Source of the DNA: an uncultured Bacteroidota bacterium
GTDB lineage: Bacteria > Bacteroidota > Bacteroidia > Bacteroidales > P3
Direction of reading: 5' to 3'
NCBI GenBank assembly: GCA_902784465.1
Contig: CACZUZ010000029.1
Location: 1 to 32,270, forward strand
Length of the DNA stretch: 32,270 bases
The translations under genes were made by a program, and so were the position numbers. This document shows positions 12,786 to 32,270 of the stretch, in pieces. Below the pieces are notes generated by a model that saw only the letters and a program-made list of their open reading frames with translations, was not told the origin of the DNA and did not search any database. Position 1 is the first letter of the stretch. Each line of letters begins with the position of its first letter.

Positions 12786-14195
12786 TTAAAACTTGCCCTG
12801 CTCCAGATGAAAGACGTTGACGGTGATGGAATCCTCATATTTCTCGTTGAGGTGAAGGGCTGTCTGCTCGGCACAGTAGACAGAGCGGTGGCGGCCTCCG
12901 GTACACCCGAAATTGAGCATCAGTCTTGTATATCCACGCGACATGTAACTCTCTACCGACTGGTCGACAAGGGCAAATAGATTGTTCAAATACTGTTCTG
13001 TCTCAGGATATTGCAAGAAAAAGCCTTTCACCTCCTTGTCGCGACCATTGAGCTGCTTGTATTCATCGTATAGTCCAGGATTGGGGAGTGCACGGCAATC
13101 GAAGACATAGCCGCCGCCATTGCCTGACTTGTCGAACGGGATACTCTTACGATACGAGAAACTAAATATTGTAACTATCAATCCATCAGTATTTTTCGAA
13201 TACTCAGGCAAATCGGTGATATATTTCAGGACCGACAATAGATGTGGTATTTCAATAGGAAACTGTATGCAAGAGATGATTTTTCGAAGATTGGTGACTG
13301 CGAACGGGATGCTTTTCACAAAATGCTCTTTCTTCTCGATGATGCCACGAAATCCGTAGGCTCCCATGGCCTGCAATATACGTGCCAGCACATAGCCGTA
13401 GAATTTCGAACGGAAAGCTTCCGCGTCGAAAGCATCCCCGTCCTGTTCCTTGCGACTGGAGATATAGTATTCCAGCAGTTCGTTTCGCATCTCGTCGGGA
13501 ACATCTGATTTCGAACTGTATAGCAGAGAGGCCAGGTCGTATTCGGCTGCACCTTGACGAGCTCCTTGGAAGTCGATAAAGTACATGTCGTCATCACGGA
13601 GCATTATGTTCCGCGACTGGAAGTCGCGAAACATGAAGTAGTTGCAGTTTTCATCAAGCAAATAGTCTATAAAGGTCTGATAGTCTTGCTCAAGCAACTG
13701 TTCGTCAAACGGTATGTGGAATAGCCTCAAGAAGTAGTATTTGAAATAGTTGAGGTCCCATTGGAGTGCTTGACGGTCAAAACGGGGACGTGGATAGGAT
13801 TTCGAAAAATCGACATCGTTGCACACATGCTGAATCTTGATGAGTGCGTCTATCGCTTTCATATACAGCTCCTTCATCGGTTGAGAGACATCCACGTTGT
13901 TGCTCTTCCGCGATGAGAGATAGGTGTAAAGAGTCACGTTGCCCAAGTCTTCCTGAATATAGGTTCGGCGGTCATCGCTAACGGCATAGACCTCAGGGAC
14001 ATTGATGCCTCTCGACTTCAACTCTTTGGCAAAGTAGAAGAATGCCTCATTCTCGCGTATATCGTCGTTGATGGCAGCTATGCATTTTTTCGTTTCTCCC
14101 TCCAGACGGTAATAAAGCCTGTTGGAGCCGTTGGCAGTAAGCTGGTAGGTGTTGATACAGGGTTCACCTGCCCATTGTTCAAATAATGTAGTCAC
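12786..14195 (-). CDS. AmgK-like sugar kinase fused to a RapZ C-terminal domain
   Basis: The 469 residues contain two domains. Residues ~1-310 form an aminoglycoside-phosphotransferase-type kinase: an FRDFQSRN catalytic loop (189-196, Asp191 base, Asn196) and IDFQGARQG (207-215, Asp208 metal ligand), closest in pattern to AmgK, which phosphorylates N-acetylmuramate/GlcNAc at C1. Residues ~338-469 match the C-terminal domain of RapZ: FDCRALPNPG (365-374), a GRDKEV segment and GCTGGRHRSVYCAEQ (430-444). In E. coli that domain binds glucosamine-6-phosphate. The RapZ N-terminal P-loop domain is absent. A MurU-like gene lies nearby at 15139-15834, which supports a role in cell-wall sugar recycling. 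Substrate and regulation by amino sugars are inference. Confidence 0.82.
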   Translation of the reverse strand: MTTLFEQWAGEPCINTYQLTANGSNRLYYRLEGETKKCIAAINDDIRENEAFFYFAKELKSRGINVPEVYAVSDDRRTYIQEDLGNVTLYTYLSSRKSNNVDVSQPMKELYMKAIDALIKIQHVCNDVDFSKSYPRPRFDRQALQWDLNYFKYYFLRLFHIPFDEQLLEQDYQTFIDYLLDENCNYFMFRDFQSRNIMLRDDDMYFIDFQGARQGAAEYDLASLLYSSKSDVPDEMRNELLEYYISSRKEQDGDAFDAEAFRSKFYGYVLARILQAMGAYGFRGIIEKKEHFVKSIPFAVTNLRKIISCIQFPIEIPHLLSVLKYITDLPEYSKNTDGLIVTIFSFSYRKSIPFDKSGNGGGYVFDCRALPNPGLYDEYKQLNGRDKEVKGFFLQYPETEQYLNNLFALVDQSVESYMSRGYTRLMLNFGCTGGRHRSVYCAEQTALHLNEKYEDSITVNVFHLEQGKF

Positions 14196-14399
14196 TTATA
14201 GTGGTTTGTGTTTTAAAGTTAGAAAGAGTAATCTAGTCAAAAGAAAGAATGTGGAGTCAATAAAAGTTCAACAGCAGCACCTTTTCCCTTTCATAACAAG
14301 AAAACCTGTTTTTTATTGCACTAATACGAACAATAAAAGTATTCACCATACGTTAAAAAGAAAAAATGTATTCTGAATAAACAGTAAACCATATATAAA

Positions 14400-15155
14400 A
14401 TGAAAAAAACAGTATTGATAACAGGTGCGACGAGCGGCATTGGCCTGGCTTGCGCCCAAAAATTTGCTGCCAATGGCGACCGTCTCATCCTCACTGGTCG
14501 CAATGGACAGCGCCTCGAAGAGATTTGCAAAGAGCTCACCAACAAGGGGACAGAAGTTCTCACCCTCGTTTTTGATGTACGCGATCGCCAGAAAGCAACG
14601 GAGTGCATTGAAAACCTTCCTGCCGCATGGAAAGATATCGACGTGCTGGTGAACAATGCAGGTCTTGCCCTGGGGCTTGAACCCGAGTATGAGGGTCATT
14701 ACGATGACTGGGACACCATGATAGACACCAACATCAAAGGCTTGTTGACCATGACCCGCCTGGTGGTGCCTGGAATGGTGAAACGCGACCGTGGACATAT
14801 CATCAATATCGGTTCTGTGGCTGGCGATGCCGCATACGCCAACGGCAATGTCTATTGCGCCACCAAATCGGCCGTGAAAACCATCACTGACGGTCTGCGT
14901 CTCGACGTGGCCAACACAGCCATCCGCGTCACCAACCTCAAGCCCGGCCTTGTGGAAACCAACTTCAGCAACACCCGTTTCCATGGCGACAGCGAGCGCG
15001 CCGCCAATGTCTACAAAGGCATCAAGCCTCTCACTGGTGACGACATCGCCGATGTGGCCGTCTACGCTTCCAACGCTCCCGACCATGTACAGGTTGCCGA
15101 GGTGCTCATCCTCGCCACCCATCAGGGCAGCGGCAGCGTCATCGTCCGCAAATAA
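14400..15155 (+). CDS. Short-chain dehydrogenase/reductase, YdfG-like
   Basis: This is a 251-residue classical SDR that oxidises or reduces a small hydroxy compound with NAD(P). It carries TGATSGIG (8-15) for cofactor binding, NNAG (85-88), Ser139, Tyr152 and Lys156 (YCATK). The overall pattern resembles YdfG, the NADP-dependent 3-hydroxy acid (serine/malonic semialdehyde) dehydrogenase. It is the only plus-strand gene between 0.3 and 20.5 kb, diverging from the AmgK/RapZ gene across a 204-base gap (14196-14399) with no clear TAnnTTTG box. Its 3' end overlaps the 3' end of the murU-like gene by 17 bases. Substrate specificity is not determinable here. Confidence 0.88.
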   Translation: MKKTVLITGATSGIGLACAQKFAANGDRLILTGRNGQRLEEICKELTNKGTEVLTLVFDVRDRQKATECIENLPAAWKDIDVLVNNAGLALGLEPEYEGHYDDWDTMIDTNIKGLLTMTRLVVPGMVKRDRGHIINIGSVAGDAAYANGNVYCATKSAVKTITDGLRLDVANTAIRVTNLKPGLVETNFSNTRFHGDSERAANVYKGIKPLTGDDIADVAVYASNAPDHVQVAEVLILATHQGSGSVIVRK

Positions 15156-15176
15156 GTGAAGCCGCTGCCAGTTTTT
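15126..15176 (+). terminator. Rho-independent terminator for the SDR gene, inside the murU-like gene
   Basis: GGCAGCGGC (15126-15134) and GCCGCTGCC (15161-15169) form a perfect 9-bp GC-rich stem, with the SDR stop codon in the loop, followed by TTTTT at 15172-15176. The whole structure lies within or next to the last codons of the convergent murU-like gene. Confidence 0.82.
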
Positions 15177-15834
15177 CAGGAGTACCCACGTCGAACCACC
15201 TGTCTGGAGAATGCATGAAATAACGTATCGGATGATGTTTCGACAGTTCCAGATAAGTGTCGATGACAGGGTACGGATGGTCGTCGGGGGGCAACAGATT
15301 GAATAGCGCAGGGCTTATCATCGATACACCGCTGAATGCCAATGGTATTAAACCCGCATCATCAACCTCGCCAACCCTTCCCACAAGGCGACCATCCTCA
15401 TCGAACAGCAGCATTCGCTTTGTTGAACGATGACTGGCACAGAGTGTCACAAGATTGTCATTTGCAAGATGATGACGGCAGAGGGCATGAAAGTCTATGT
15501 CAGAAATGATGTCGACATTGTGAACCAGTATGGGTTCTTTGCCTGAAAATAAATGCGTTGCATGTCTTAATGCTCCTCCCGTGTCGAGGAGCATTTTTCG
15601 TTCGTCGCTTATAAGCACCTCGCAGGGCCATTGGTGGCTGTTGATGTAGTCGATAAACATGTCACCAAAATGGTGGACGTTGACAACACACCTACGAATG
15701 CCGGCATCAGACATTCGCTGCATGTTTATCTCCAGCAGTGTCCTTCCACCAATCTCGACAAGAGCCTTCGGCCGGTCGTTTGTGAGAGGACGCAGTCGTG
15801 TGCCCAGACCTGCGGCCAGAATCAATCCTTCCAT
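15139..15834 (-). CDS. MurU-like sugar-1-phosphate nucleotidyltransferase
   Basis: This is a 231-residue nucleotidyltransferase with the NTP-binding signature AAGLGTRLRPLT (7-18) and PKAL (22-25). The HNVDI stretch, about residue 105, gives the metal-binding Asp, and the end is FDVGTPEKLAAA. The length and pattern fit MurU, which makes UDP-MurNAc from MurNAc-1-phosphate and lets cells bypass de novo UDP-MurNAc synthesis. General mannose/glucose-1-phosphate transferases are longer or have extra domains. The AmgK-like kinase gene, which would supply the substrate, is on the same strand 1.6 kb further down, separated by the opposing SDR gene. The assignment to MurU rather than another sugar is inferred from this pairing. 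Confidence 0.75.
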   Translation of the reverse strand: MEGLILAAGLGTRLRPLTNDRPKALVEIGGRTLLEINMQRMSDAGIRRCVVNVHHFGDMFIDYINSHQWPCEVLISDERKMLLDTGGALRHATHLFSGKEPILVHNVDIISDIDFHALCRHHLANDNLVTLCASHRSTKRMLLFDEDGRLVGRVGEVDDAGLIPLAFSGVSMISPALFNLLPPDDHPYPVIDTYLELSKHHPIRYFMHSPDRWFDVGTPEKLAAASLICGR

Positions 15835-15879
15835 ATCTGTTTTAGACGTTGTTGGCTGGTGATCAATACCATGTAGCGA

Positions 15880-16086
15880 CTATTTCAAGCCCCTGATGAG
15901 GCGAATCATCGCCACTGTAAGACCTAGAAATGCAAAAAGGATTGTGAAGAATGGGAACGAGGCAGCCCTGCGGCGATCGATGGTCACACCGCCCCACACA
16001 GCTGCACCTATAATCACGGCCATCTCGATACCGAGGGTCGAATAGCGCAACCACTCCCCTTCTTTGTCACTTTTTGGCAGACCCAT
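15880..16086 (-). CDS. atpZ: AtpZ/AtpI-family small membrane protein
   Basis: This is a 68-residue protein with two membrane segments (about LGIEMAVIIGAAVWGGVTI and FPFFTILFAFLGLTVAMIRLI) separated by a short basic loop, the layout of AtpZ. In other bacteria AtpZ with AtpI assists F-type ATP synthase assembly or Mg/Ca supply. An upstream ATG at 16137 is in frame but would extend 17 codons into the bactofilin gene with unrelated residues. The ATG at 16086 (MGLPKSDKEGEW) is therefore preferred and gives a 20-base overlap with bactofilin. No atp genes are nearby, but association of atpZ with bactofilin and a SprE-like gene is familiar in Bacteroidales. Confidence 0.75.
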   Translation of the reverse strand: MGLPKSDKEGEWLRYSTLGIEMAVIIGAAVWGGVTIDRRRAASFPFFTILFAFLGLTVAMIRLIRGLK

Positions 16087-16438
16087 CTTCGCGACGCACC
16101 TCGTCAAGCATACGACAACTACCTGAGAATGTCGCACCTGGCTCGATACTCAAGCGGTTAATAAGGATGTCACCCTTTACTTTGGCAGTGCTGTTCAGAG
16201 AAAGTAATTCTTTCACGGAGATATTGCCTTCAACCATGCCTATTATATTGGCGTTCTGGCAGACGACATTACCTTTGACATAGCCAGACTCGCCGACAAC
16301 GAGTTTACCATTGAGGGTTATGTCGCCCTCTAGTTTTCCATCAAGCCGGAAGTCACCAACAGCACTCACACTGCCCTTGATAGCGGTACCCTTTGATATG
16401 GTATTGATGGGACTTTCCATTTCTGCAAATTTTGCCAT
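16067..16438 (-). CDS. Bactofilin family protein
   Basis: This is a 123-residue polymer-forming cytoskeletal protein. The central beta-helix shows the usual repeating hydrophobic pattern: AIKGSVSAVGDFRLDGKLEG, then GKLVVGESGYVKGNVV, then AKVKGDILINRLSIEPGATFSG, with short polar tails at both ends. Bactofilins form non-polar filaments on the inner face of the membrane and organise envelope-building enzymes. The gene overlaps atpZ by 20 bases and lies 80 bases from the SprE-like lipoprotein gene upstream on the same strand. Confidence 0.9.
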   Translation of the reverse strand: MAKFAEMESPINTISKGTAIKGSVSAVGDFRLDGKLEGDITLNGKLVVGESGYVKGNVVCQNANIIGMVEGNISVKELLSLNSTAKVKGDILINRLSIEPGATFSGSCRMLDEVRREDGSAKK

Positions 16439-16450
16439 AATTATTGTGGG

Positions 16451-16512
16451 TTAATTGTTTACAGTTTATAGGATAAGGTCTTTCTCATCATCCAACACTC
16501 ATCATCCTATGG
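16451..16512. repeat. Two short period-7 arrays between the SprE-like gene and bactofilin
   Basis: GTTAATT, GTTTACA and GTTTATA start at 16451, 16458 and 16465. CTCATCA, TCCAACA, CTCATCA and TCCTATG start at 16485, 16492, 16499 and 16506, so CTCATCATCC recurs 14 bases apart. They fill most of the gap 16439-16518. They are weaker than the other arrays. Confidence 0.5.
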
Positions 16513-16518
16513 TTTTTA

Positions 16519-19266
16519 CTATTCTTTTTTATAGTAGTATTCATAGAATTTCCTGTAGGCCTCAATATTTTTCTGATTGTAGAAAGTATTGTAATTCTGT
16601 GTCGAAATGCTGAAAACGATATAGTCCTTGGGGTCGTATTTTGAGAGAGGACCTCCGTCGAGAAGCAGATGCGTGCGATACGATTCCGCCTCGGCGGCGT
16701 TCTGGAAACGATGGATGGTCAGCATCTGTATGGTATCGGTGAAAAGAAGTGGACTTGCGCGGTAACCGCTGTTGGAATAATTCTGCATGTTGAAGTCGGC
16801 AATGGCATATTGCAACTGTGTTGCCACAATCTTCTTGTCGTTAATAAGCACTGCCACATAATGTTGCAGTTGTTCACGATAGCGATACATGAGGCTTTCC
16901 TGCGGCAACGCCGAGTCGTCGTTTTTCTCACCTCCATCCTTGGCAGTCAGGCTTGCCACATCGCGTACATTTTCCTTGTAACGGCTGCGACCCTGAGCCT
17001 CTTCGTCGCTGCTCACCTCTTCGTTGCCACCCATCGAGCTGTAGCGTCCGGTGCGAAGATACGCAAGCTGCTCCTTGGCGAGTTCGACCAGACGGGTCGT
17101 GTCGGGATAGTCGGCGACGATGGTCTCGAAAGTCACAGTGGCCACTGCGGTGTCACCCATCTGTGCCGATGCAAGTCCTTTCCAGTAGCGGAATTTGCCC
17201 ATCAAAGGTTGTTCATTATAGGTCTGCAGGGCGGCATCGACATGTGTTACCACATCATGATATTTCTTCCTACGGTAGAGGTTATACACTGTAGAATATT
17301 CATTTTGTGCCACTTCGCTACGCTGGATAATCTCAAGATAGTATTGGTCATCGCGTATCATATTGGCATAGTCGCTGTCGGGAAATCCTCTAAGCACCAT
17401 GTCGCGATAGTAGTTGGCTTGCGGGGTGTTGCCCTGTTTCGAGTAGATGCGCCATAACTGATAGAAAGCCTGTACTATCTCGTCGGCATCAGGGTAATCC
17501 TTGGCGAGGCGAAGATAGCATTCCAATGCACGTTCGGTATTCTCTATACCATCGTAGTATATGTAACCGGCATTGAGCAGACAACGTGCTATGTCGGCAT
17601 GCATTGTGTCGCGTTGCCCCTGGGTCTTAGGGATGTTCTTTAGGTAATAAGCCTGATTGTGAGGATCATCGGGGTCCTCCTTGCCGTTCATGACGAGCTG
17701 TGTGCTATCGACCGCCATTGTGTCGGAGTCATCGCCCATATCGTCATCAGCATTCTCCATGCCAGGAATCATCGAACCCATCCCGAAACTGTTCTTTTTG
17801 GAGATGAACCAGTAGTCGTCAAGCACCCTCACACCCCAGCGTTGGCGGAATGTCTGTTTTCCTTTCGATACGGTGTTGTGGTTGTAGAAATACCAGTCAC
17901 CTTCAAGGGTGTTCATCTGTCCCTGGCTCTCTTTTTTTAGCTCTTCCAGCAACTTGCGTTCTTCGGCTTCCTTCTCCTGTTGACGCAACTCATTGATTTT
18001 GTTTTCTATGAGTTTTGAACGCTTAACAGGATCCATATCAGCCCATGTCAGCAAACTGTCGTTCAAGTGAATAAGCCTTGTATTCTCAACCAATGCTGAA
18101 AGGGTGTTGTATCGTGTGCGTATTTCGTCGAAATGAGGGTATCCGGCTTTGATGATGTGAATGGCGGTGTCGTAGTATTTCTGAGCCTCGTCGTAATTCT
18201 CATAGTACTCATACAAGACGTCTGCCATTTTCAATGCCGATTTGGCTTTCTGCATGGGGTTGCCGTTGGCAGCTGCAACAGACAACTTATAGTTGTCGCA
18301 GGCTTTTTTGGCATCCTTCATGCCCATATACATGTCGCCCTTGGCATAGTAAATCTGATCCTGAAACTCTTGGTTCTTCTTGTCCTTGAGCATTTTGTCG
18401 AGACTTTTCTCTATAGCTGCCAGGTCTGTATGCTCCTCGGTGGCACAGGAGGCTATGCTTATCCTGGCGTTGAACTCCATTACATAGTCAGGTCTGCATT
18501 TCAGCACTTTCTCGTAATATTTTGTGGCCGTAGGGCGCTTATCGAGTGTCTGATATATCTGAGCCATAATGAAGTAGAGTCGGGCCTTGGTTTGCCGGCT
18601 GCTCGTCTCGTCGAGAGCCGAACGGATATATTGGACAGCCTTCTTGTACTTCTCCTGTGGCAAAAGGGTCTCAATCATGGCAAGATACAGCTTGTCGTTC
18701 AGTTTGGCTGAGAAATTGCCCTTTTGCTGCTCGTTGACAAGCTGATCCAGAGCCACTTCGGCATCGGTGTATTGCTTCTCTTGCGTCTGGCAACGAGCAA
18801 GAAGAATTTTGGCCTCGTCGCTCTCTGGGCTTCCGGCAAACTGGGTCATTATCAGGCGACAGGTATTGGCTGTGGCGGCATAGTCTTGCTTCTGGAATGT
18901 GGCGTAAGCAGTAAGCAAGTAGCAGTTTTTCACATATTTCACATATTCTCTGCCCTGAAGATAGATGCTATGCTTCTGGATGCCCTTTATACCTTTTTCG
19001 ATGGCTTTGTCCATCTGCTGATAGATGCCCATTGCCTGTTCTTTGCTGCCAATTTGATAGACAGGGAGAATCTGTGTGTAGTCGTCCTTAAAAGTCTTCT
19101 CTAGTTTGCGCATGCCTTCCTTGTAGCTCTCGTTACCATTCCACCACACATTGTAATGGCACGTGGTGTTGTGATAGGTCACATTTGTCCAGTTGGCCTT
19201 CCGCGTGGAACAGCCAGCCAGAACAACAATGGCTGAGAGGATGATTGGAATCTTGCGCCAGTTCAT
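16519..19266 (-). CDS. SprE/PorW-like TPR lipoprotein
   Basis: This is a 915-residue outer-envelope lipoprotein. The signal peptide ends in a lipobox, LAGC, with the acylated Cys at 19. The opening after it (NVTYHNTTCHYNVWWNGNESYKEG) matches the start of the SprE (Flavobacterium) and PorW (Porphyromonas) proteins needed for type IX secretion and gliding. About residues 110-380 and 560-720 carry TPR-like helical repeats, with a charged coiled-coil-like stretch around 420-450 (NELRQQEKEAEERKLLEELKK). The C terminus is a small domain often seen in these proteins (YVAVLINDKK, FQNAAEAESYRTHL). No other type IX secretion genes are in the window, so whether secretion is its role in this organism is open. 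Confidence 0.82.
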   Translation of the reverse strand: MNWRKIPIILSAIVVLAGCSTRKANWTNVTYHNTTCHYNVWWNGNESYKEGMRKLEKTFKDDYTQILPVYQIGSKEQAMGIYQQMDKAIEKGIKGIQKHSIYLQGREYVKYVKNCYLLTAYATFQKQDYAATANTCRLIMTQFAGSPESDEAKILLARCQTQEKQYTDAEVALDQLVNEQQKGNFSAKLNDKLYLAMIETLLPQEKYKKAVQYIRSALDETSSRQTKARLYFIMAQIYQTLDKRPTATKYYEKVLKCRPDYVMEFNARISIASCATEEHTDLAAIEKSLDKMLKDKKNQEFQDQIYYAKGDMYMGMKDAKKACDNYKLSVAAANGNPMQKAKSALKMADVLYEYYENYDEAQKYYDTAIHIIKAGYPHFDEIRTRYNTLSALVENTRLIHLNDSLLTWADMDPVKRSKLIENKINELRQQEKEAEERKLLEELKKESQGQMNTLEGDWYFYNHNTVSKGKQTFRQRWGVRVLDDYWFISKKNSFGMGSMIPGMENADDDMGDDSDTMAVDSTQLVMNGKEDPDDPHNQAYYLKNIPKTQGQRDTMHADIARCLLNAGYIYYDGIENTERALECYLRLAKDYPDADEIVQAFYQLWRIYSKQGNTPQANYYRDMVLRGFPDSDYANMIRDDQYYLEIIQRSEVAQNEYSTVYNLYRRKKYHDVVTHVDAALQTYNEQPLMGKFRYWKGLASAQMGDTAVATVTFETIVADYPDTTRLVELAKEQLAYLRTGRYSSMGGNEEVSSDEEAQGRSRYKENVRDVASLTAKDGGEKNDDSALPQESLMYRYREQLQHYVAVLINDKKIVATQLQYAIADFNMQNYSNSGYRASPLLFTDTIQMLTIHRFQNAAEAESYRTHLLLDGGPLSKYDPKDYIVFSISTQNYNTFYNQKNIEAYRKFYEYYYKKE

Positions 19267-22838: not shown

Positions 22839-23573
22839 ATGGAAGGAAAAAAGAAGAATAACAGAAAATATGATTCAGGAGTCAACATCATGGGTAGTGT
22901 TCCAAACTACAACGTGATGCTTGACTATATCAGTGATACATACGGCATCACGGAAGGCAGTGCAGGTGCCTTTGAGTTCAGGACAGAAAAATCCTTGCAA
23001 CGGTTTGTCTCTGCCATAGAATCCTGTATTCTTAAATTTAGGAATGACACTCACAAGAAAATGTTCTTCGATGCCATCGGAAACAAAGCATTTTCAGTAC
23101 AAGAAAGACTGATCATCCTATTTTGGCAACTGACATATTCCAATCTTTTATTCTCTCGGATAACATCAGAAGTGTTTATGAAGGCTGTCTATTCGGGTCG
23201 TGTCATCATTATGGCTGAAGAAATCACAAATTTCTTACGTTTTATAAAAGAAACAGAGAATGGAGAGTTGGATTGGAGTGAAGACACCATTAAGATTTCA
23301 GGTAGCAAGTATCTAACCATCATGAAGAAGTTGGGGCTTGCTGATGGTGCGGTCAAGAAAAGCATTGTTCATCCTGTCATTACAAACAATCTATTTGTTT
23401 ACTATATCCGTTTCATCCAGACTATAACAGATGACAAGACTTTGCACAACCCATACATCATATTCTCGTTCAGCGAAGAACAGAATATGATTAGCCGATT
23501 AAAAAGGATTGAGAATATCCAGCATTGGGATATTACCCAAATAGGTAATGAAATAACTATAGATTTGAAATAA
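22839..23573 (+). CDS. brxA: BREX protein BrxA (DUF1819)
   Basis: This is a 244-residue protein matching BrxA. Like other DUF1819 proteins it is mostly helical, with LIILFWQLTYSNLLFSRITSEVF in the middle and a C-terminal winged-helix-like part. BrxA is the first gene of type 1 BREX loci and binds DNA; its precise job in restriction and modification is not settled. The gene starts after an AT-rich gap. The ATG at 22839 is preferred over one at 22832, which is out of frame and ends after nine codons. One base separates it from brxB, so the two are coupled. Confidence 0.88.
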   Translation: MEGKKKNNRKYDSGVNIMGSVPNYNVMLDYISDTYGITEGSAGAFEFRTEKSLQRFVSAIESCILKFRNDTHKKMFFDAIGNKAFSVQERLIILFWQLTYSNLLFSRITSEVFMKAVYSGRVIIMAEEITNFLRFIKETENGELDWSEDTIKISGSKYLTIMKKLGLADGAVKKSIVHPVITNNLFVYYIRFIQTITDDKTLHNPYIIFSFSEEQNMISRLKRIENIQHWDITQIGNEITIDLK

Positions 23574-23574
23574 T

Positions 23575-24126
23575 ATGTCTTCTACTTATATTCAAGAACA
23601 TAACCGTTTATTCGGTGACTTGACGGCAGCTTTAGGAAGAGACCTTGCCCACTTGTCTTCAGAGGCAAATGGTGGAAGGAGCATCCTGTTTGTCTATCCA
23701 CCTGTTGACGAAGAGAAGTATATAAAGGAGGCAAAACAAAGGTTCACCGACGGATATGAGTTCATTGATATCCGACAACTATTTGTAGAGTTTGTCGATT
23801 CCAAAGGACTTGACAAGTTCAAACACCAATTCAAGAATATGGGTACGGAAGTTTTTGTCAGCCAAAACTATACTGAGGGAACTTTTTATAGTTTTCTGAT
23901 GAAAAGAATTGTAGATTCAGCAACAAAAGGTGTCTCTCCGATATTGATACATACGGGCGTCATCTACAAGATGGGGTTCTCCAATCAGAACATCATGGAA
24001 GATCCAAATGTGATGAAGTTCCAAAAGCCGCTTGTGTTTTTTTATCCTGCGGTGGCGAGGAATGAAACGATATATTTTCTCGACCTACAGCCAGCCTCAA
24101 AATATCGCTGTGTGGTTATTATGTAA
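23575..24126 (+). CDS. brxB: BREX protein BrxB (DUF1788)
   Basis: This is a 183-residue DUF1788 protein. Recognisable parts are LSSEANGGRSILFVYPPVDEEKYI near residues 27-50, the central GVSPILIHTGVIYKMG and the C-terminal VFFYPAVA then ASKYRCVVI, the usual end of BrxB. BrxB is a small core BREX component of unknown biochemical role, required for defence in tested type 1 systems. It follows brxA after one base and precedes brxC by 20 bases, in the standard type 1 order. Confidence 0.9.
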   Translation: MSSTYIQEHNRLFGDLTAALGRDLAHLSSEANGGRSILFVYPPVDEEKYIKEAKQRFTDGYEFIDIRQLFVEFVDSKGLDKFKHQFKNMGTEVFVSQNYTEGTFYSFLMKRIVDSATKGVSPILIHTGVIYKMGFSNQNIMEDPNVMKFQKPLVFFYPAVARNETIYFLDLQPASKYRCVVIM

Positions 24127-24146: not shown

Positions 24147-27100
24147 ATGACCAAGATAAAAGATATACTTTCAATTCGTCTCGAAGATGACATCAAAAGT
24201 GTGATTGACCTTAACCAGCAGGACGAGAATAGCATCATGAATGAACTTGACGGATTCATCCTGACAGAGAGTCTGGCAAAACATTTGGCAGACTTCTGCG
24301 ACTTCTTTACCTCAAACACAGCTCAACCAGGATTATGGTTGAGCGGCTTCTATGGTTCTGGTAAGTCATATTTCTCAAAGATGATAGGTTTCCTGCTAAA
24401 GAATCCTACTATTCAAGGAACCTCTGTTCGTGACCGTTTCCAGAATAAGCTCATAGGATTGCCCAATGCAGGGCTGCTCCAAAACAGCATTAACGAACTT
24501 GGACGTACCAATAACCATATTGTGCTCTTCGATGCAGCCAAGACTACAGGCAATCATGGTATAAGCTACATGATGATGGGCGCATTCCTTAAATCTTTAG
24601 GACTTAACGATGACTGGGTAGGTATCATTGAGTTCAATTTGCTGATGAGCGGTCGATATCAGGCTTTCTGCGATAAAGTCCAACAGAAGTTTGGAGAGTC
24701 ATGGTTGAAGCGCCGTCAGAATATGGATGAAGTGTATGACACTTTGGAGGACACCATGCTCGACGGTTTTTGTTCTGAGAATGCTTACGACGAGATGCGT
24801 GAGGCCGCAAAACTGCGCATACAGGACTATGACGCTGTAAAACTTCAAGAAGACTTGACGCGCTATCTTGAAAATAACTCAGACATCCGTATTGTATTCA
24901 TGATTGATGAGGTGAGCGAGGCGATTGCTCAGAAGAAGATCAATATCCTTGACCTTGAAGGTGTGGCGGAAGCTGTAGCCGCCCTCGGACGCAAGGTGTG
25001 GACCATTGCCATTGCTCAGCTTCAGTTGGATGATGTCATCAATGGCACCAATGTCAATCGTAGTCTGCTCACAAAAATTATTGACCGTTTCAAGAAGCGC
25101 ATCCCTATTGCCGCCGAAGAGGTGGATATGATTATTCGTAAGCGTCTTTTGGCCAAGACTGCTGACGGTAACGACCTCTTGCAGGACTACTATAAGAAGA
25201 ACAGTGGCAAGATTTCCGATATTACCAATATTGTCGGCACGGGACTCAACAAGACCACCGATGCCAAAACATATGCAGACTACTTCCCGTTCTATGAGCA
25301 TCAGTTCAAGATGCTTCAGTACTTCCTGTTTGGTACCCAAAAGCTTGTCAAGACGCAGGTGGGTACTCGTGGAATGTTGATTTCCGCATTCGACGTATTG
25401 AAGAAAGAGGCTCTTTCCAACAAAGACATCCACACTCATGTCAATGCCTCACAACTTTGCCGACAGGCTGAAGAAGCTGTGGCAGAATCACTACGTGTTC
25501 GTTATAGTCAGGCCGATGAGCATCTGAAGGAAATGAATCTTCATTTCGTTGTGGGACATGACATGCTTCAGACCATTCACTTTCTTACAGAATCAGGTGC
25601 CAAGACAACTGCCGAGAATATCAGCCGTGCATACGTCAATTGTCCTGACGATTATTTCTCCGTACTTGAAGAAGTAAAGAAGGCATGTAAGAAACTGGCC
25701 GATGATGAGATTCTTATCCTTTCTGGCGATGAGTACCGTATCACGAGTGAGACTCAGCAACGCATCTTTGAGATGATGAACAACATTGACATTGCCAACT
25801 ACCGCATCAAAGGCGAGATTACCAAGCAGGTGAAGCAAATGTCGCTCGTCCGTGGTGCTCAAAACCTGATGGTTGATTCTGTTAATGTGGGATTCGCTGT
25901 TCAGTCAGACAGTGGCGAACCATTTTCTACTGGCGGTGATCAAGGCATGAAGGTAGTGTTCCATGACATTCTCAGTGTCAAGCCATCTTTCAATGAGTAT
26001 GTTGAACACGTTAAGGAAGAAACGCAGTCTCAGAAAGGCATCATCAGTATTGTGCCTTCTTCCAACTATGCCTCTGAGATACAGAAAATAGCAGAGGATA
26101 TCCTTCGTATCAACTATATCAAGGATGTACCTAATCTCACTTCTGAAGAGAAAAAGGTTGTAGAAGAAATTGCCAGCTCTTTGGATAGTAAAACAGCTCA
26201 ACTGGAACAAGTCATCGTGAAGTCGTATGCTAATGGTATGCTTGTGTATCTCTATAATGCCAGCATTATGACTGCCCAGAATGCAACAACCATTATCAAG
26301 GAGGCTGAACTGAAGATGTATGGCAATATCTATACCAAGCGCCTTGGTGGTTCACTGAAAGATAGCGTAGCCCTTCAACTGCTGAAAGTGGCTCAGAATC
26401 AGCTCCAGAATGTCATCGGTCAGCAGCCTGACTTCTTGTTCTTTGATACCACAGGACAGTTTATTGGCGACCAGTTACCCGTCATTACAGAAATGATGGC
26501 ACAAATGGCATCTTATAAGAATGGTGCCGATTTGGAGCGTGACCTTGCAGCTGCTCCTACCGGCTATAGCTTCGGTACGGTATTCTCAACCTTGGCAGCA
26601 CTCTTCCGTGCCAGCAAGGTTATCATCAAGTACAACAACCAGGAATACCACTCTTGGCAGCAGGAAGGAGCTAAAGAGCCTTTCGCCACCAGTCGTAATT
26701 TCCAACGTGCTTCGTTCAAGGCCATCACCAAGAGCCTGACCTATAATGAGAAGCGTGACATTGTTGACACCTTAAAGGACTGTCGCTATAAGGAACTGAC
26801 AGGAAACAATCTCAGTTACAACATGAATGATTTTGAGCTGGTTGCAGCCATTCAGTCACTTTCCGTTACTGAGATTCACAAAGTCAATAATCAGATTTGT
26901 AACGACACAGAGCGAGAGCGCATCTTCCGTCGTTCTCTTGCAGCCAAGGATGTACTTCGACAATATGCTGGAACAGTCACAGAATACAACTATTTCAATA
27001 CTGCCAGAACGTTCCTTGGCGACAACGAAAATGAGGAGTTCTGCAAGGCGGTGGAGAAGATAGAGGCAGATATTCGTTTTATTGATACCAATATGCGTGA

Positions 27101-27800
27101 GATTGAGTATCAGAAAGATTTCTTCCTCGATGTAAAGAACGAACTGGAGTTTGTGGGTTCTCCCATGCAGTCTTTTGACCAGATTCATGAAGCCTATCTG
27201 CAGATGCTCGATAGTGATCCTGTACACAATTATCAGCAGATGAAGAAAGAGTACCAAAACGTCAAGGACTTGTACTACCAAAACATGGATCATCAAGCTG
27301 AACAGATGATTAATGGATATGGAGACCTGTTGACCCGCATTGAAGCTATCAAGAAAAATGCTGAGCAATACCCTGCGGAATGGAACACAAGGCTCTATGC
27401 TAAAGTTAGGGGAAAGGAAGATGTATGCAAGAAATACATCATTTCGAAAATCCAGTTGAAAGACTACGAAATTCGTTGCTCCAATTGTCACCTTCAGCTT
27501 CGTGACATCGTGAGTGCCATCAATATGCTGCCACAACTGAACGTTGACGTAGATGTGATGGAAACAGAGATTTGCACATCTGACCCGAAACCTGCGCCAC
27601 AGCCACAGCCCCAACCACAGCCTGGTCCTGGAGATCCCAATCCGCAGCCGCAACCAAAGCCACAGCCTAAGGAACGCAAGTTGCGTAACCAACTGCCAAC
27701 AGGGCAACTCAGCGTTGCACAGTACAAGCAATGGCTGAAACAACAGTTGGCGATGGTCAATCAATTTGATACAAACGACATTCTTAAATTTGACGAATAA
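24147..27800 (+). CDS. brxC: BREX ATPase BrxC
   Basis: This is a 1217-residue P-loop protein of the BrxC/PglY group. Walker A is GFYGSGKS (67-74) and Walker B is IVFMIDEV (about 249-256), with an AAA-like core in the first 450 residues. The long rest is mostly helical. Near the C terminus are CSNCHL (a CxxC pair, about residue 1111), then a Pro-Gln-rich linker (about 1147-1174) and a final basic helix (about 1183-1205, KQWLKQQLAMVNQ). BrxC is thought to form an ATP-dependent part of the complex that marks host DNA and blocks phage replication. Its stop overlaps the pglX start by one base (TAATG), which implies translational coupling. Confidence 0.93.
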   Translation: MTKIKDILSIRLEDDIKSVIDLNQQDENSIMNELDGFILTESLAKHLADFCDFFTSNTAQPGLWLSGFYGSGKSYFSKMIGFLLKNPTIQGTSVRDRFQNKLIGLPNAGLLQNSINELGRTNNHIVLFDAAKTTGNHGISYMMMGAFLKSLGLNDDWVGIIEFNLLMSGRYQAFCDKVQQKFGESWLKRRQNMDEVYDTLEDTMLDGFCSENAYDEMREAAKLRIQDYDAVKLQEDLTRYLENNSDIRIVFMIDEVSEAIAQKKINILDLEGVAEAVAALGRKVWTIAIAQLQLDDVINGTNVNRSLLTKIIDRFKKRIPIAAEEVDMIIRKRLLAKTADGNDLLQDYYKKNSGKISDITNIVGTGLNKTTDAKTYADYFPFYEHQFKMLQYFLFGTQKLVKTQVGTRGMLISAFDVLKKEALSNKDIHTHVNASQLCRQAEEAVAESLRVRYSQADEHLKEMNLHFVVGHDMLQTIHFLTESGAKTTAENISRAYVNCPDDYFSVLEEVKKACKKLADDEILILSGDEYRITSETQQRIFEMMNNIDIANYRIKGEITKQVKQMSLVRGAQNLMVDSVNVGFAVQSDSGEPFSTGGDQGMKVVFHDILSVKPSFNEYVEHVKEETQSQKGIISIVPSSNYASEIQKIAEDILRINYIKDVPNLTSEEKKVVEEIASSLDSKTAQLEQVIVKSYANGMLVYLYNASIMTAQNATTIIKEAELKMYGNIYTKRLGGSLKDSVALQLLKVAQNQLQNVIGQQPDFLFFDTTGQFIGDQLPVITEMMAQMASYKNGADLERDLAAAPTGYSFGTVFSTLAALFRASKVIIKYNNQEYHSWQQEGAKEPFATSRNFQRASFKAITKSLTYNEKRDIVDTLKDCRYKELTGNNLSYNMNDFELVAAIQSLSVTEIHKVNNQICNDTERERIFRRSLAAKDVLRQYAGTVTEYNYFNTARTFLGDNENEEFCKAVEKIEADIRFIDTNMREIEYQKDFFLDVKNELEFVGSPMQSFDQIHEAYLQMLDSDPVHNYQQMKKEYQNVKDLYYQNMDHQAEQMINGYGDLLTRIEAIKKNAEQYPAEWNTRLYAKVRGKEDVCKKYIISKIQLKDYEIRCSNCHLQLRDIVSAINMLPQLNVDVDVMETEICTSDPKPAPQPQPQPQPGPGDPNPQPQPKPQPKERKLRNQLPTGQLSVAQYKQWLKQQLAMVNQFDTNDILKFDE
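27585..27672 (+). repeat. Pro-Gln-rich low-complexity stretch in brxC
   Basis: Codons for repeated Pro-Gln and Pro-Lys pairs, many of them CCA CAG or CCG CAG, cover about 28 residues near the BrxC C terminus. It looks like a flexible linker between the CxxC-containing part and the last helix. The DNA repeats could change length by slippage in steps of six bases without loss of frame. Confidence 0.7.
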
Positions 27801-30800
27801 TGAAACTAATCAATCATGTTCTCGACATACGACGCCTGATTCAGCATGCATTCGATAATCGTTTCTCACGCATGGGACTTCGCAAGGAGGCTGCTACGCC
27901 TGTAGAGCAGATTCTGGCAGAGCACCAAGAGAAGCGTAGGAAACTGGATGAACTGATGAGTAGCCACCTGAGCGAGTTGGGTGACTATGAGGAGGCACGT
28001 CAGGCAGCCGTCAACGAGTGTGTATTTACGCTCTTTAACCGCATTGCTGCCATCAAGGTGATGGAGTCGAAGGAATTGTTTCCTGAGATTATCACCCGAC
28101 GAAAGGAGAATGCGGGACGTTCTTTTGAGCACAATGTGTGGTTGGAGAACCACCCAGAGGAGCGCAATGCGGAACGTGAGGGATTGAAGCATTTCCTTAG
28201 TGACCAGTTTGAAAGTCTTGGTGAGCATATTCCCCTTTATCGTAAAGACTATCCATACGCATTGATGCCGACAGCCGATGAACTGAATGAGATTATCGAG
28301 CAGTTCAATGCCATAGAAGTGGATGCTGACTGTGGAGCTGATGTATGGAAGGGTGACGACATCCTTGGCTGGCTCTACGAGAACTTCAATGCCGTAGAAA
28401 AAGAGGCATTGAAGCAGAGTGGCGAGAAGACAGAATACAATAAGGTGTCACTTCAGAGTCAGGTTTATACGCCCCAGTGGGTGGTGAAGTTCCTTGTTGA
28501 CAACACGCTGGGTAAGGCATACATGGAGATGTTTCCCGATAGCCGTATCAAAGAAAAATACCAGATTGCTAATATCCCCTACCATCAGGTGCGTCATCCC
28601 GAGGATTTGCGCCAGATGCGACTGCTCGACCCAGCCTGCGGTTCGGGCAACTTTCTGATTTATGCTTTTTCGCTCTTCTACGACTTGTATGTAGATCAGG
28701 TGGAAAATTACGAGCGTGACTACAGCCGCCGTGATATCCCGAAAATGATTGTGGAGAACAACCTCTTTGGTGTTGACTTGGATGAGCGAGCAGCACAGAT
28801 TTCTCAGATAGCACTCTTCATCAAAGCACGAGAATTAGGTGGTCATCGCAGCCATTGGCCAGCATATACCAATGTGGTGAGCACGCATTTCTTCCTGCCC
28901 AAATATGAAGAGATAGAAGGAGTGTTTGAAATTTTTGGGGAATGGAATGAGAAACAGAGGAATATGATTCCCAAGATCTGGGAGGATTTAACAAATGCCT
29001 ATAAATTCGGCTCCCTTATCCGCATGGAAGAATTGTTGAACGAGATGATGCCTAACGACGTGAACCATTCACTTTTCAAGGAGTATGAAATGAAAAGCCT
29101 CTTTGAGTACAAGAATAATGTTATTACACAGTTACGCAATAATGTAAACCAATGGGGAGGTGTTGGCAGTAACAAATATACATTAGCCAAAGCTAATGAT
29201 GCCATTTCTTTTCTCGATATCATCAGTCAACGTTACGATGTGGTAGTGGCAAATCCCCCATATACTGATAGTGGGGACTTTGGTACTGAACTGAAGGCTT
29301 TCGTGGAGGAGAATTATAAGAAGCCTTTGAAGTTCAACAGCAACCTCTATGCTTGTTTTATCAAACGTTGTTGTGAATTGGCAGGAGATGACGGAAAGGT
29401 GGGAATGATTCATCCTCACACCTTTATGTTTATCAAGACCTTTGAGGATGTGCGTAAGTTTATGCTCGAACAGACACATATCAATGTGATGGTGGACTAT
29501 GGACTTGACCGAGTGAATCTGTTCGGCCCTGGCATCCTGCTTGACGCTACCTTCTATACGCTTGATATGAATGTGCGGGATAAAGCTAATGGCATATACT
29601 TTAATATTACAGCAGGGCAGCAGGAGAAATTCAAGAAAGGCTCGCTGGCGCAGGCATATTCTGACTATCTCAACGGTCAGTCTAATGACCGTGTTTATAC
29701 CCTTCCTCAATCGAAGTTGAAGGGTATCAAGTCATATCCTTTTATCTACTGGATTTCTGATGAGTTCAGAGAGAAGTTTGCTCTTCCGACAATAGAAGAG
29801 AAACTCAAAAATTGCCAAGGATTAATTACCTCTAACAATTATAGGTTTCTCCGCTATTGGTGGGAGATTTCTTCTAACACTGATTTCAGATATTGGATAA
29901 AATATGCTAAAGGAGGACCTTACCAAAAATGGTATGGCAATGATTGGTTAGTTGTTGATTGGGAGAACAACGGCAAACGAATCAAAGAATTTGTTGACGA
30001 AAATGGGAAACAAAAATCGAGACCTCAAAATGAGCAATTTTATTTGACAGAAGGAATAACTTATTGCAGCACTGGTTCGAAAGGTGCATCTTTTAGGTAT
30101 ATGCAGGATGATCACTTATTTGATTCTGGCGGATCTTCTATTTTCACACTCGATAAAATAGATGTGTACGTATTACTTGCAATATTGAATTCCAGCCTTA
30201 CTAAATACATCATTAATTGTTTGAATCCCACTGTAAACACACAGGTTGGAGACATCGGAAGAATTCCAGTAGTTATTGAACAATCTGAGTTCTATAACAT
30301 CATCAGTGCTTTAGCAAGGCAAAACGTAGAATTATGTGAGATGAAAAGTGTATACTCATTAATCGAATACAACTTTAAGATGTCTCCTTTTTCTGCTGCA
30401 TTTGAAGTTTCAGCATCACTGAATCGTTTCTTTAATATTGAGAACGCCCTCCTTACTCAAATTCTCCTCAATGAGAGCATTATCAACAAGACCGTCTTTG
30501 AGGTCTATGAATTGAGTGATCACGATAAGCAGATGGTATTGGACAAAGAGGGCATTCCTGTTGGCGACCTGCCTGTGAGTTATGAGGCAAAGGTTGCCTA
30601 TAAGCAGTGGTTGACCGAAGAAAGCGAGTTCAAACCAACGAGTGATGTACTTGAACATTTAGAGAGCTTGGAGGAGCGCGATGACTTGCCAAAGATCACT
30701 GACTTCGACACTCTCTATCAGAACAACAACGAGTGGGAGGAGTTCTGCATCAAGCGTAATGTGAATCCCGTGGAAGCATGGTGGCAATTTAAGAACGCCA

Positions 30801-31468
30801 ATGTGCTGCCCCCTCAGCGTACACAGGTGTTAGCTTTTGAACTGATTACCGATGTCATCCGCACCGTGCTGGCTAAGGACGATGACAGCATTATCCCATT
30901 AGGTGACCGACTGGGCGAGGAACGCCTTGCCATCCGCATAGAAAAAGAAATGATGGAGCGTGGATACTCGGTTGCACAGTTCTCTCAGGTGTGCCAGTTG
31001 TTGGGTTGTGGCTTGGAGAAATATCTGCAAGAGCGATTCTTCCAGCAACTCAGCGACCACCTGAACCTCTTTATGTATCTGCCTAAGACTCCGTTCATCT
31101 GGCACCTCAGCAGTGGTCCACATCACGCCATAGAACTTTACGTCAGCATATATAAGTGGAACCGCGATGCCCTGTATCGTGTCCGCTCTATCTATGCTGC
31201 CAACCGTGAGGCTGCCCTTCGTGACCGTCTCAACTCCATTGACACCAGCAACACCGAAGGACGCATGGAGGCACAAGAGCTTCGTGTCACGCTGACAGAG
31301 CTACAAGAGTTCTGCCAGAAAGTGGATGACCTTCTCGCCACTGGCTATGACCCGAAACTTGATGACGGCGTTGGCAAGAACATCGCCCCACTGCAGAAAC
31401 GCAAGATGCTCAGCTATGAAGTGCTCAATGCCGGACAGCTGAAGAAATATTTGAATGCGGATTGGTAA
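27800..31468 (+). CDS. pglX: BREX adenine-specific DNA methyltransferase PglX
   Basis: This is a 1222-residue N6-adenine methyltransferase that marks the host BREX site. The SAM motif is DPACGSGNF (277-285) and the catalytic motif is NPPY (485-488). The N-terminal part (about 1-230) has the family start (FDNRFSRMGLRKEA, EHNVWLENHPEERNAEREGLKHF). The region between about 650 and 900 should hold the target-recognition domain. The C-terminal part (PFIWHLSSGPHHAIELYVSIYKWN) is typical of PglX. It overlaps brxC by one base. By direct count, 30181-30240 has 18 G+C in 60, against 31 in 60 at 31081-31140, which suggests the recognition part was exchanged. No frameshift or long homopolymer was seen. 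Confidence 0.95.
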   Translation: MKLINHVLDIRRLIQHAFDNRFSRMGLRKEAATPVEQILAEHQEKRRKLDELMSSHLSELGDYEEARQAAVNECVFTLFNRIAAIKVMESKELFPEIITRRKENAGRSFEHNVWLENHPEERNAEREGLKHFLSDQFESLGEHIPLYRKDYPYALMPTADELNEIIEQFNAIEVDADCGADVWKGDDILGWLYENFNAVEKEALKQSGEKTEYNKVSLQSQVYTPQWVVKFLVDNTLGKAYMEMFPDSRIKEKYQIANIPYHQVRHPEDLRQMRLLDPACGSGNFLIYAFSLFYDLYVDQVENYERDYSRRDIPKMIVENNLFGVDLDERAAQISQIALFIKARELGGHRSHWPAYTNVVSTHFFLPKYEEIEGVFEIFGEWNEKQRNMIPKIWEDLTNAYKFGSLIRMEELLNEMMPNDVNHSLFKEYEMKSLFEYKNNVITQLRNNVNQWGGVGSNKYTLAKANDAISFLDIISQRYDVVVANPPYTDSGDFGTELKAFVEENYKKPLKFNSNLYACFIKRCCELAGDDGKVGMIHPHTFMFIKTFEDVRKFMLEQTHINVMVDYGLDRVNLFGPGILLDATFYTLDMNVRDKANGIYFNITAGQQEKFKKGSLAQAYSDYLNGQSNDRVYTLPQSKLKGIKSYPFIYWISDEFREKFALPTIEEKLKNCQGLITSNNYRFLRYWWEISSNTDFRYWIKYAKGGPYQKWYGNDWLVVDWENNGKRIKEFVDENGKQKSRPQNEQFYLTEGITYCSTGSKGASFRYMQDDHLFDSGGSSIFTLDKIDVYVLLAILNSSLTKYIINCLNPTVNTQVGDIGRIPVVIEQSEFYNIISALARQNVELCEMKSVYSLIEYNFKMSPFSAAFEVSASLNRFFNIENALLTQILLNESIINKTVFEVYELSDHDKQMVLDKEGIPVGDLPVSYEAKVAYKQWLTEESEFKPTSDVLEHLESLEERDDLPKITDFDTLYQNNNEWEEFCIKRNVNPVEAWWQFKNANVLPPQRTQVLAFELITDVIRTVLAKDDDSIIPLGDRLGEERLAIRIEKEMMERGYSVAQFSQVCQLLGCGLEKYLQERFFQQLSDHLNLFMYLPKTPFIWHLSSGPHHAIELYVSIYKWNRDALYRVRSIYAANREAALRDRLNSIDTSNTEGRMEAQELRVTLTELQEFCQKVDDLLATGYDPKLDDGVGKNIAPLQKRKMLSYEVLNAGQLKKYLNADW

Positions 31469-31506: not shown

Positions 31507-32270
31507 ATGAAGATTATAGATATCACAATCGAAAACTTCAGAGGCTTTACACACAAGTTCTTTGAATTTGATCCCAAGATGAATGTCATACTTGGTGACA
31601 ATACAACAGGTAAGACAACATTACTACAAGCGGTACAAATCGCGTTGGGGGCATTCCTCCAAGAAATGACTTTCTTGCCTGGCGGAAATGGTTATAGTCG
31701 TAATTTTCGACCTACAGACCATGTTAAAGTTTATAGTGAATCAAGCAAAGGCTTTATTCCCATAGCCGAGAAACCCAGTATTGAAGTCAATGCAGAATGT
31801 CTTGTTGGGCAATTCGATGAATTGACACAACAAGTAAACACGTCGACAAATCACATTAGGTGGAAAAGGACAAGTAACAAAAACTCCAAAGCCAATGCTC
31901 AAGAACTGATGGACTTTGTGGCAGACATAGAGGCCCGAAGAAGAAATGCAGACAATGAGGGCACAAATTCTCTTTTTCCACTCTTTTTGTCATTTGGTGC
32001 AACTCGCCTCGAAAAGAACTACAAAGGAGCCGAAAAAACGAAGCAACGTGAAACACGAGAAGCAAGGGCCTATAAATGTGCTCTTGATGAACAGGTTGAT
32101 TTCAAAGGGGCTTTTGATTGGATCTATAGATACGAAAAGAGTTTTAATAAAGGAGGTGAATTCGCTGACACGAATGAGGCTTTTCTGAATGCAATAAAGG
32201 AAGCGATTCCTGCCATTCGCCAAATTGACATCGATACAAAGAACAATGAATTCACAGCACTGATCAAGAT
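31507..32270 (+). CDS. P-loop ATPase of the RecF/SMC-like (COG3950-like) type, N-terminal part only
   Basis: The frame is open from the ATG at 31507 to the right edge (254 codons plus two bases), so the 3' part is outside. The start MKIIDITIENFRGFT is the usual opening of RecF/SbcC/OLD-type ATPases. Walker A is GDNTTGKT (30-37). Further on, LSFGATRLEKN (about 160-170), a YKCALDEQVDFKGAFDWIYRYEKSF stretch (about 194-218) and EAIPAI resemble ATPases grouped as COG3950 and the PtuA-like ATPases of some defence systems. The signature motif, Walker B and any nuclease part are not visible. It starts 38 bases after pglX, on the same strand, where pglZ would be expected. An accessory defence role is inferred from place alone. 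Confidence 0.8.
   Translation, partial: MKIIDITIENFRGFTHKFFEFDPKMNVILGDNTTGKTTLLQAVQIALGAFLQEMTFLPGGNGYSRNFRPTDHVKVYSESSKGFIPIAEKPSIEVNAECLVGQFDELTQQVNTSTNHIRWKRTSNKNSKANAQELMDFVADIEARRRNADNEGTNSLFPLFLSFGATRLEKNYKGAEKTKQRETREARAYKCALDEQVDFKGAFDWIYRYEKSFNKGGEFADTNEAFLNAIKEAIPAIRQIDIDTKNNEFTALIK

Follow-up and report, generated by a model that had tools for sequence, protein, structure and literature searches.

BREX genes and a truncated ptuA gene in the window

The stretch of DNA analyzed here (the window) is the whole of contig C29, 32270 bases long, from a genome assembled in 88 contigs. According to PADLOC, NCBIfam and Pfam profiles, its last genes are brxA, brxB, brxC and pglX, followed by the 5' part of a ptuA gene that the contig end cuts, all on the plus strand. 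The brxA gene (22839..23573) was identified by the PADLOC BrxA profile (2e-43) and by Pfam BrxA (4.5e-06; 27 bits against a cut-off of 23), and brxB (23575..24126) by the PADLOC BrxB profile (1.9e-30). For brxC (24147..27800), the PADLOC BrxC match (6.8e-284) was accompanied by 415.2 bits with NCBIfam NF033441 (cut-off 400), and for pglX (27800..31468), encoding the BREX type 1 adenine methyltransferase, the PADLOC PglX match (E = 0) by 596.5 bits with NCBIfam NF033452, BREX_1_MTaseX (cut-off 500). The PADLOC matches and the NCBIfam scores above cut-off bear out the type 1 BREX gene order brxA-brxB-brxC-pglX that a preliminary description of the window had proposed.

The truncated gene (31507..32268), which comprises 254 codons of about 444, starts 38 bases past the pglX stop (31468) and is open at the contig end (32270). 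The same description had placed an ATPase frame at this distance from pglX on the same strand, with a clear Walker A motif and a likeness to PtuA, and these points were confirmed: the motif reads GDNTTGKTT, and the partial protein matched the PADLOC PtuA profile at 9.2e-73, as well as Pfam AAA_23 (7.9e-16) and AAA_15 (2.7e-11). Other identities of the ATPase were rejected. The best GajA match was 1.1e-12, against 9.2e-73 for PtuA, and the NCBIfam models of RecF (7.5e-09) and Rad50 (1.4e-07) matched more weakly than that of retron PtuA (1.4e-14), all three models scoring under the NCBIfam cut-off on the partial protein.

The second half of the locus

A PtuA profile search of the same genome (G000) found the remainder of ptuA where contig C48 ends (1.0e-87, over profile positions 242-430), and the own-genome profile search placed a PglZ match on that contig likewise. 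A match to PF08665 on contig C25 was set aside as lying outside the operon; its protein is presumably PorX-like. On the minus strand of C48 (L013), the 3' part of ptuA (18620-19186; PADLOC PtuA, 2.8e-88) is followed by ptuB (17874-18623; 1.9e-62), by pglZ in two overlapping frames (16487-17863 and 15708-16514; 1.3e-91 and 1.2e-71) and by brxL (13654-15687; 5.6e-275). Thus the pglZ and brxL genes that had been expected downstream, and whose absence was to count against the proposed arrangement, were both found, on C48 and not on C29. The predicted nuclease partner, for which either an HNH or a TOPRIM type had been considered, is an HNH-type PtuB encoded downstream of ptuA.

When genome contigs were scanned with the truncated PtuA as query, four loci were returned. 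The close relative L010 carries an unbroken brxA-brxB-brxC-pglX-ptuA-ptuB-pglZ-brxL array. A second close relative, L009, reads brxC-NsnA-NsnB-NsnC-pglX-ptuA-ptuB-pglZ-brxL by PADLOC, with the region 5' of brxC outside the stretch; L009 and G121:C33, whose gene sizes agree, were counted as one locus. The six genes of type 1 BREX (brxA, brxB, brxC, pglX, pglZ, brxL) are therefore found in order, unbroken in L010 and over two contigs in the window's genome. The two parts of the window's PtuA correspond to residues 1-254 and 257-444 of the 444-residue PtuA of L010. Over the lengths tested, 9 to 60 bases, the C29 and C48 ends do not overlap, and no contig bridges them; from the split ptuA gene and the unbroken order in L009 and L010, we infer that the two contigs are adjacent. 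In this assembly, ptuA is split over two contigs and pglZ lies in two frames, so the operon of this genome is at most putatively intact. The pglZ gene is a single frame in L009 (733 aa) and L010 (742 aa), and its double frame in the window's genome may be real or an assembly error.

Identity of PtuA and PtuB and spacing of their genes

The PtuA homolog of L010 matched the solved PtuA 8ee4 at 5.6e-31. In an alignment of 12 PtuA relatives, from which the window's own protein was excluded, residues G30, K36, D309, E310 and H341, belonging to the Walker A and Walker B motifs and the histidine of TTHSP, were invariant; the two parts of the window's protein, judged by eye, contain these motifs. The locus thus has the features by which Septu is recognized, namely a PtuA ATPase that has both Walker motifs (A and B) as well as the conserved C-terminal ones and, directly 3' of it, a PtuB with an HNH motif.

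The HNH assignment is weak when taken from single sequences. The window's PtuB scored 21.5 bits with Pfam HNH, narrowly above the cut-off of 21.4, and the PtuB of L011 and that of G212 did not match the family at E 0.001. A phmmer search of the PDB with the window's PtuB returned no PtuB, its sole match being one unrelated chain (E 0.018). A profile built from 11 PtuB rows retrieved solved chains, both of PtuB and of retron HNH proteins, the best at 4.6e-13; 8ee7 is the solved PtuB relative. The HNH histidine and asparagine are invariant in 11 of 11 rows, the window's own included, as is the second cysteine pair, the cysteine spacing being longer in G212. Judged by the ATPase motifs and the HNH residues, both halves of the pair look intact.

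A 4-base overlap joins ptuA to ptuB in C48, L009 and L010, and ptuB is separated from pglZ by 10 bases. Together with the 38 bases between pglX and ptuA, this spacing suggests that ptuAB and the BREX genes form one shared operon. Counts of promoter-like sites (38, against 31.2 with sd 5.4 in shuffles) and terminator-like sites (12, against 10.9 with sd 4.0) in L010 showed no excess.

Comparison of the three close cassettes

Between the window's genome and L010, identity is 93% for BrxA, 95% for BrxB, 97% for BrxC, 82% for PglX, 93% and 99% for the 5' and 3' parts of PtuA, 92% for PtuB, 90% and 87% for the two frames of PglZ, and 98% for BrxL. In all three pairs formed by these two cassettes and L009, PglX is at least 86% identical in windows 1 to 350 and again from 890 onward. 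In windows 650 to 889, which we take to be the target recognition region, identity among the three falls to just 32-56%. Since PtuA is 93-99% identical, it does not track that region of PglX, and the three cassettes may read different DNA motifs with PtuA nearly unchanged. The PglX of L009 diverges already from 551, and that of the window dips at 351-500 against both L009 and L010; the divergence of PglX (27800-31468) in patches looks as if parts had been exchanged.

DNA similarity between the window's genome and L010 begins at brxA, and it ends at the end of brxL against L009 and L010 alike. The 22.8 kb 5' of brxA and the 13.6 kb 3' of brxL showed no match to L009 or L010 except for 34 bases (L009), in a comparison whose reach was about 1.3 kb on the brxA side (L010) and 4.4 kb past brxL. 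We infer that the cassettes lie at different sites and have moved as one unit. The pairing of Septu with BREX is kept in all three close copies, which is compatible with a functional link too.

Each relative has a feature of its own. In L010, a frame of 1071 aa (L010:16421-19636) lies directly 3' of brxL and was matched by neither PADLOC nor Pfam models at E <= 0.001. In L009, NsnA, NsnB and NsnC (L009:3197-6332) are a GmrSD_N/DUF262 protein, an OLD-like ATPase and a third protein, so that its BREX operon holds two nested modules, ptuAB and, between brxC and pglX, NsnABC. The order of the NsnABC genes is reminiscent of that of the ptuXYZ operon described in PMC11980606.

PtuA homologs outside BREX loci

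Searched with the PtuA of L010, the family sample of 190 genomes gave 6 matching genomes and the order sample of 393 gave 8 (both at E <= 1e-30), and the phylum sample of 395 gave 8 (E <= 1e-60), the window's genome being included in each count. With the genome-contig scan, this amounted to 23 distinct PtuA loci besides the window's own, 19 of which were annotated. Two of the 19, L009 and L010, lie in BREX operons. The remaining 17 have a PtuB-like gene adjoining PtuA and no BREX gene in the fetched stretch, as sought by phmmer with a few representatives in stretches that were partly short (3.3 to 10.5 kb). Among them, the stretch of L011 ends 68 bases past ptuB and is therefore BREX-free on its upstream side only; ptuB lies in two frames in L088; the ptuA frame of L053 was placed from the order-wide search and not by the automatic call; and the PtuA neighbors in L062, L063 and L064 matched the PtuB of G212 alone (5e-08 to 1e-10). 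Outside the 19 are L012 (10.8 kb, with no BREX gene and no ptuA frame called), G205, G466 and G521. Viral contigs scanned with PglZ and with the PtuA of L010 yielded no relatives.

These results bear on the choice, left open by the preliminary description, between a nested second defense module and an accessory BREX factor. If PtuAB acted in the BREX complex and were needed for methylation or restriction, its position within the operon and its retention in three of three close cassettes would be expected. However, 17 of the 19 annotated PtuA loci lack a BREX gene, which favors an independent nested module and disfavors an obligate BREX factor. The near-constancy of PtuA across cassettes with divergent PglX also speaks against such a role, as do the BREX loci of G498 and G262, which have no gene of at least 120 aa in either of the two intervals described below. 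We consider an accessory factor very improbable. A PtuA with an HNH-type PtuB, followed by pglZ and brxL, supports the first option, and ptuAB looks like a module rather than a part of BREX. The occurrence of the ATPase in many places without BREX, which had been named as a possible refutation, does hold for the PtuA family in general, but it does not refute a nested module.

Gene content of two intervals in BREX loci of the order

BrxC (NF033441, E <= 1e-20) was found in 14 of the 393 genomes of the order sample, the window's included, with 12 exceeding the model's cut-off. The nearest PglZ model (PDLC02545, E <= 1e-30) matched in 2 of 190 family genomes (the window's and G121) and in 4 of 393 order genomes. 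The full pglX-pglZ interval was visible in ten loci, including L009, L010, the window's own (over two contigs) and G209 (on a 3.8 kb contig). Seven of the ten contain a gene of at least 120 aa in this interval, or five of eight when the three close cassettes are counted once. The interval is filled by ptuAB in the window's locus, L009 and L010, by an OLD-like ATPase of 559 aa in G209, by PADLOC PDC-S05 in G237, by AbiGi in G409 and by Schlafen AlbA_2 in G293; no gene of this size is present in G498 (one base), G262 (238 bases) or G212 (112 bases). In G535, a frame without a PglX match ends at pglZ and pglX is outside the view; G202, G206, G344, G345 and G549 were not scorable. The best PADLOC matches of the OLD-like ATPase of G209 (L061:630-2309), which occupies the same slot as ptuAB, are AriAB and AriA.

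The brxC-pglX interval was visible in twelve loci, of which six contain a gene of at least 120 aa: NsnABC in L009, a ptuAB pair in G212, PDC-S02 in G409, several genes in G344, and one short frame each, with no PADLOC match, in G237 and G209. It holds no such gene in the window's locus, L010, G498, G262, G293 and G345, and G202, which has a short weak PglX-like frame after brxC, was excluded from the count. The long insert of G344 (L067:5313-13550) encodes an ATPase that matched IetA and PD-T4-6, together with a protein resembling Hsp70.

The pair in G212 (PADLOC PtuA, 1.7e-164; PtuB, 3.3e-66) belongs to a different Septu branch. Its locus was found via the BrxC search, and its PtuA is absent from the order-wide matches to the PtuA of L010. 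In a 14-row PtuA tree, which predates the phylum loci and in which the window's row is partial, two changes are needed for the BREX label, and as many are forced by the starred branches, with the placement of the very long G212 branch (3.4) being unsure. Subject to that placement, Septu appears to have entered BREX operons of one order twice, at two slots. A scan of 72,556 plasmid records gave one PtuA match at E <= 1e-30. On the Rhizobium plasmid pC6.5e, a helicase gene flanks one side of a PtuA gene (26% identical) and an HNH gene; on the other side come a DUF1156 gene and then the gene of an ATP-binding protein. In our reading, this locus may be the BREX-related type 1 of PMC12839542.

The position of ptuAB could alternatively reflect a guard of BREX, in which PtuAB stays inactive and fires when a phage inhibitor blocks BREX, cutting tRNA or DNA. 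Such a role would fit the placement of ptuAB between core genes in three close cassettes with flanks unmatched over the visible stretch, the separate nesting by another Septu branch in G212, and the pC6.5e arrangement. It also has precedents in PrrC, encoded in a type IC restriction locus, and in PARIS, which answers the anti-restriction protein Ocr (PMC12707154). However, PARIS in the Salmonella BREX was not activated by Ocr in the study that described it there (PMC11341690), the PtuA relatives of L011 (68% identical to that of L010) and G081 (50%) have no BREX gene in view, and unrelated genes fill the same slot elsewhere, which makes position alone a weak argument. We regard this alternative as unlikely, though clearly less so than an accessory factor. 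If it were true, the brxC-pglX and pglX-pglZ intervals of BREX operons would both be places where one guard can replace another, and what sets off the nested Septu would be an inhibitor of BREX.

Proposed role of the nested Septu pair

Our preferred reading, to which we assign a probability of roughly 85%, is that ptuAB is a Septu pair lodged in a type 1 BREX operon, with pglX on one side and pglZ on the other, and that it provides a second, abortive layer of defense. In this pair, ptuA encodes the ATPase of the Septu anti-phage system and ptuB the HNH nuclease, and both are probably co-transcribed with the BREX operon. By analogy with studied relatives, PtuA and PtuB would form a joint oligomer, as Li et al. 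are said to have found in 2024. Upon infection, PtuB would cut nucleic acid (phage DNA or host tRNA-Tyr in the studied relatives), and the infection would be aborted. In an E. coli Septu, the Walker residues of PtuA and the HNH residues of PtuB are required for defense against phage, and tRNA-Tyr is cut (PMC13096335); the PtuAB of retron-Eco7 depletes tRNA-Tyr, and another Septu is reported to act on DNA (PMC11555353). As suggested by the arrangement, the first layer would be BREX, acting through methylation; Septu would be a second one, expressed and transferred together with it and directed mainly against phages that escape BREX.

With this locus, Bacteroidales gain a complete and named example of Septu within BREX; a different Septu branch is nested in the other slot of another BREX locus. 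If the nesting is functional, these loci are well suited to the question of what triggers Septu, the sensed neighbor possibly being encoded in the same operon. If it is not, they show that fixed borders between BREX genes take up other systems as cargo.

Comparison with known systems

With Septu, the pair shares the order of ATPase and HNH nuclease genes, their overlap and the conserved motifs, with 8ee4 (PtuA) and 8ee7 (PtuB) as solved relatives. It differs in being encoded within a BREX operon, and is known here from sequence. The effectors of type I-A retrons (Ec78, Ec83) are PtuA-PtuB of the same ATPase and HNH families, whereas the pglX-brxL interval of L010 contains ptuA, ptuB and pglZ only, a content on which a retron effector was provisionally set aside.

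Nested pairs of this kind have been described. OLD-ABC ATPases paired with HNH, PD-(D/E)XK or PIN nucleases occur in 594 taxa, in BREX and related systems; the auxiliary nucleases of BREX loci include an HNH-OLD-ABC ATPase dyad, and such dyads are located within BREX core loci or close to them (Rakesh and Krishnan 2026, PMC12839542), making them the same kind of pair as ptuAB. The names PtuA and Septu are absent from that article's main text. A type 1 BREX operon also houses PARIS (ariA-ariB), again an ATPase with a nuclease, in Salmonella (PMC11341690), but AriB is a TOPRIM nuclease where the window's locus has the HNH protein PtuB. Genomes in which pglZ and pglX occur together number about 9000; genes lie between the two in about 7000 of them, and about 2000 of these have a known defense system there (PMC11341690).

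The preliminary description knew of no report of this combination. That statement holds for the name Septu, since the literature titles and abstract openings surveyed contained no Septu-in-BREX so called; it does not hold for the nesting of an ATPase and nuclease as such, going by what PMC12839542 and PMC11341690 present. Since OLD-ABC and HNH dyads and PARIS in BREX are already published, this kind of nesting is known. What the present comparison adds is the identification of the pair as Septu, the completion of the locus over two contigs, the common borders of the cassettes and the presence of nested Septu at two different slots in a single order.
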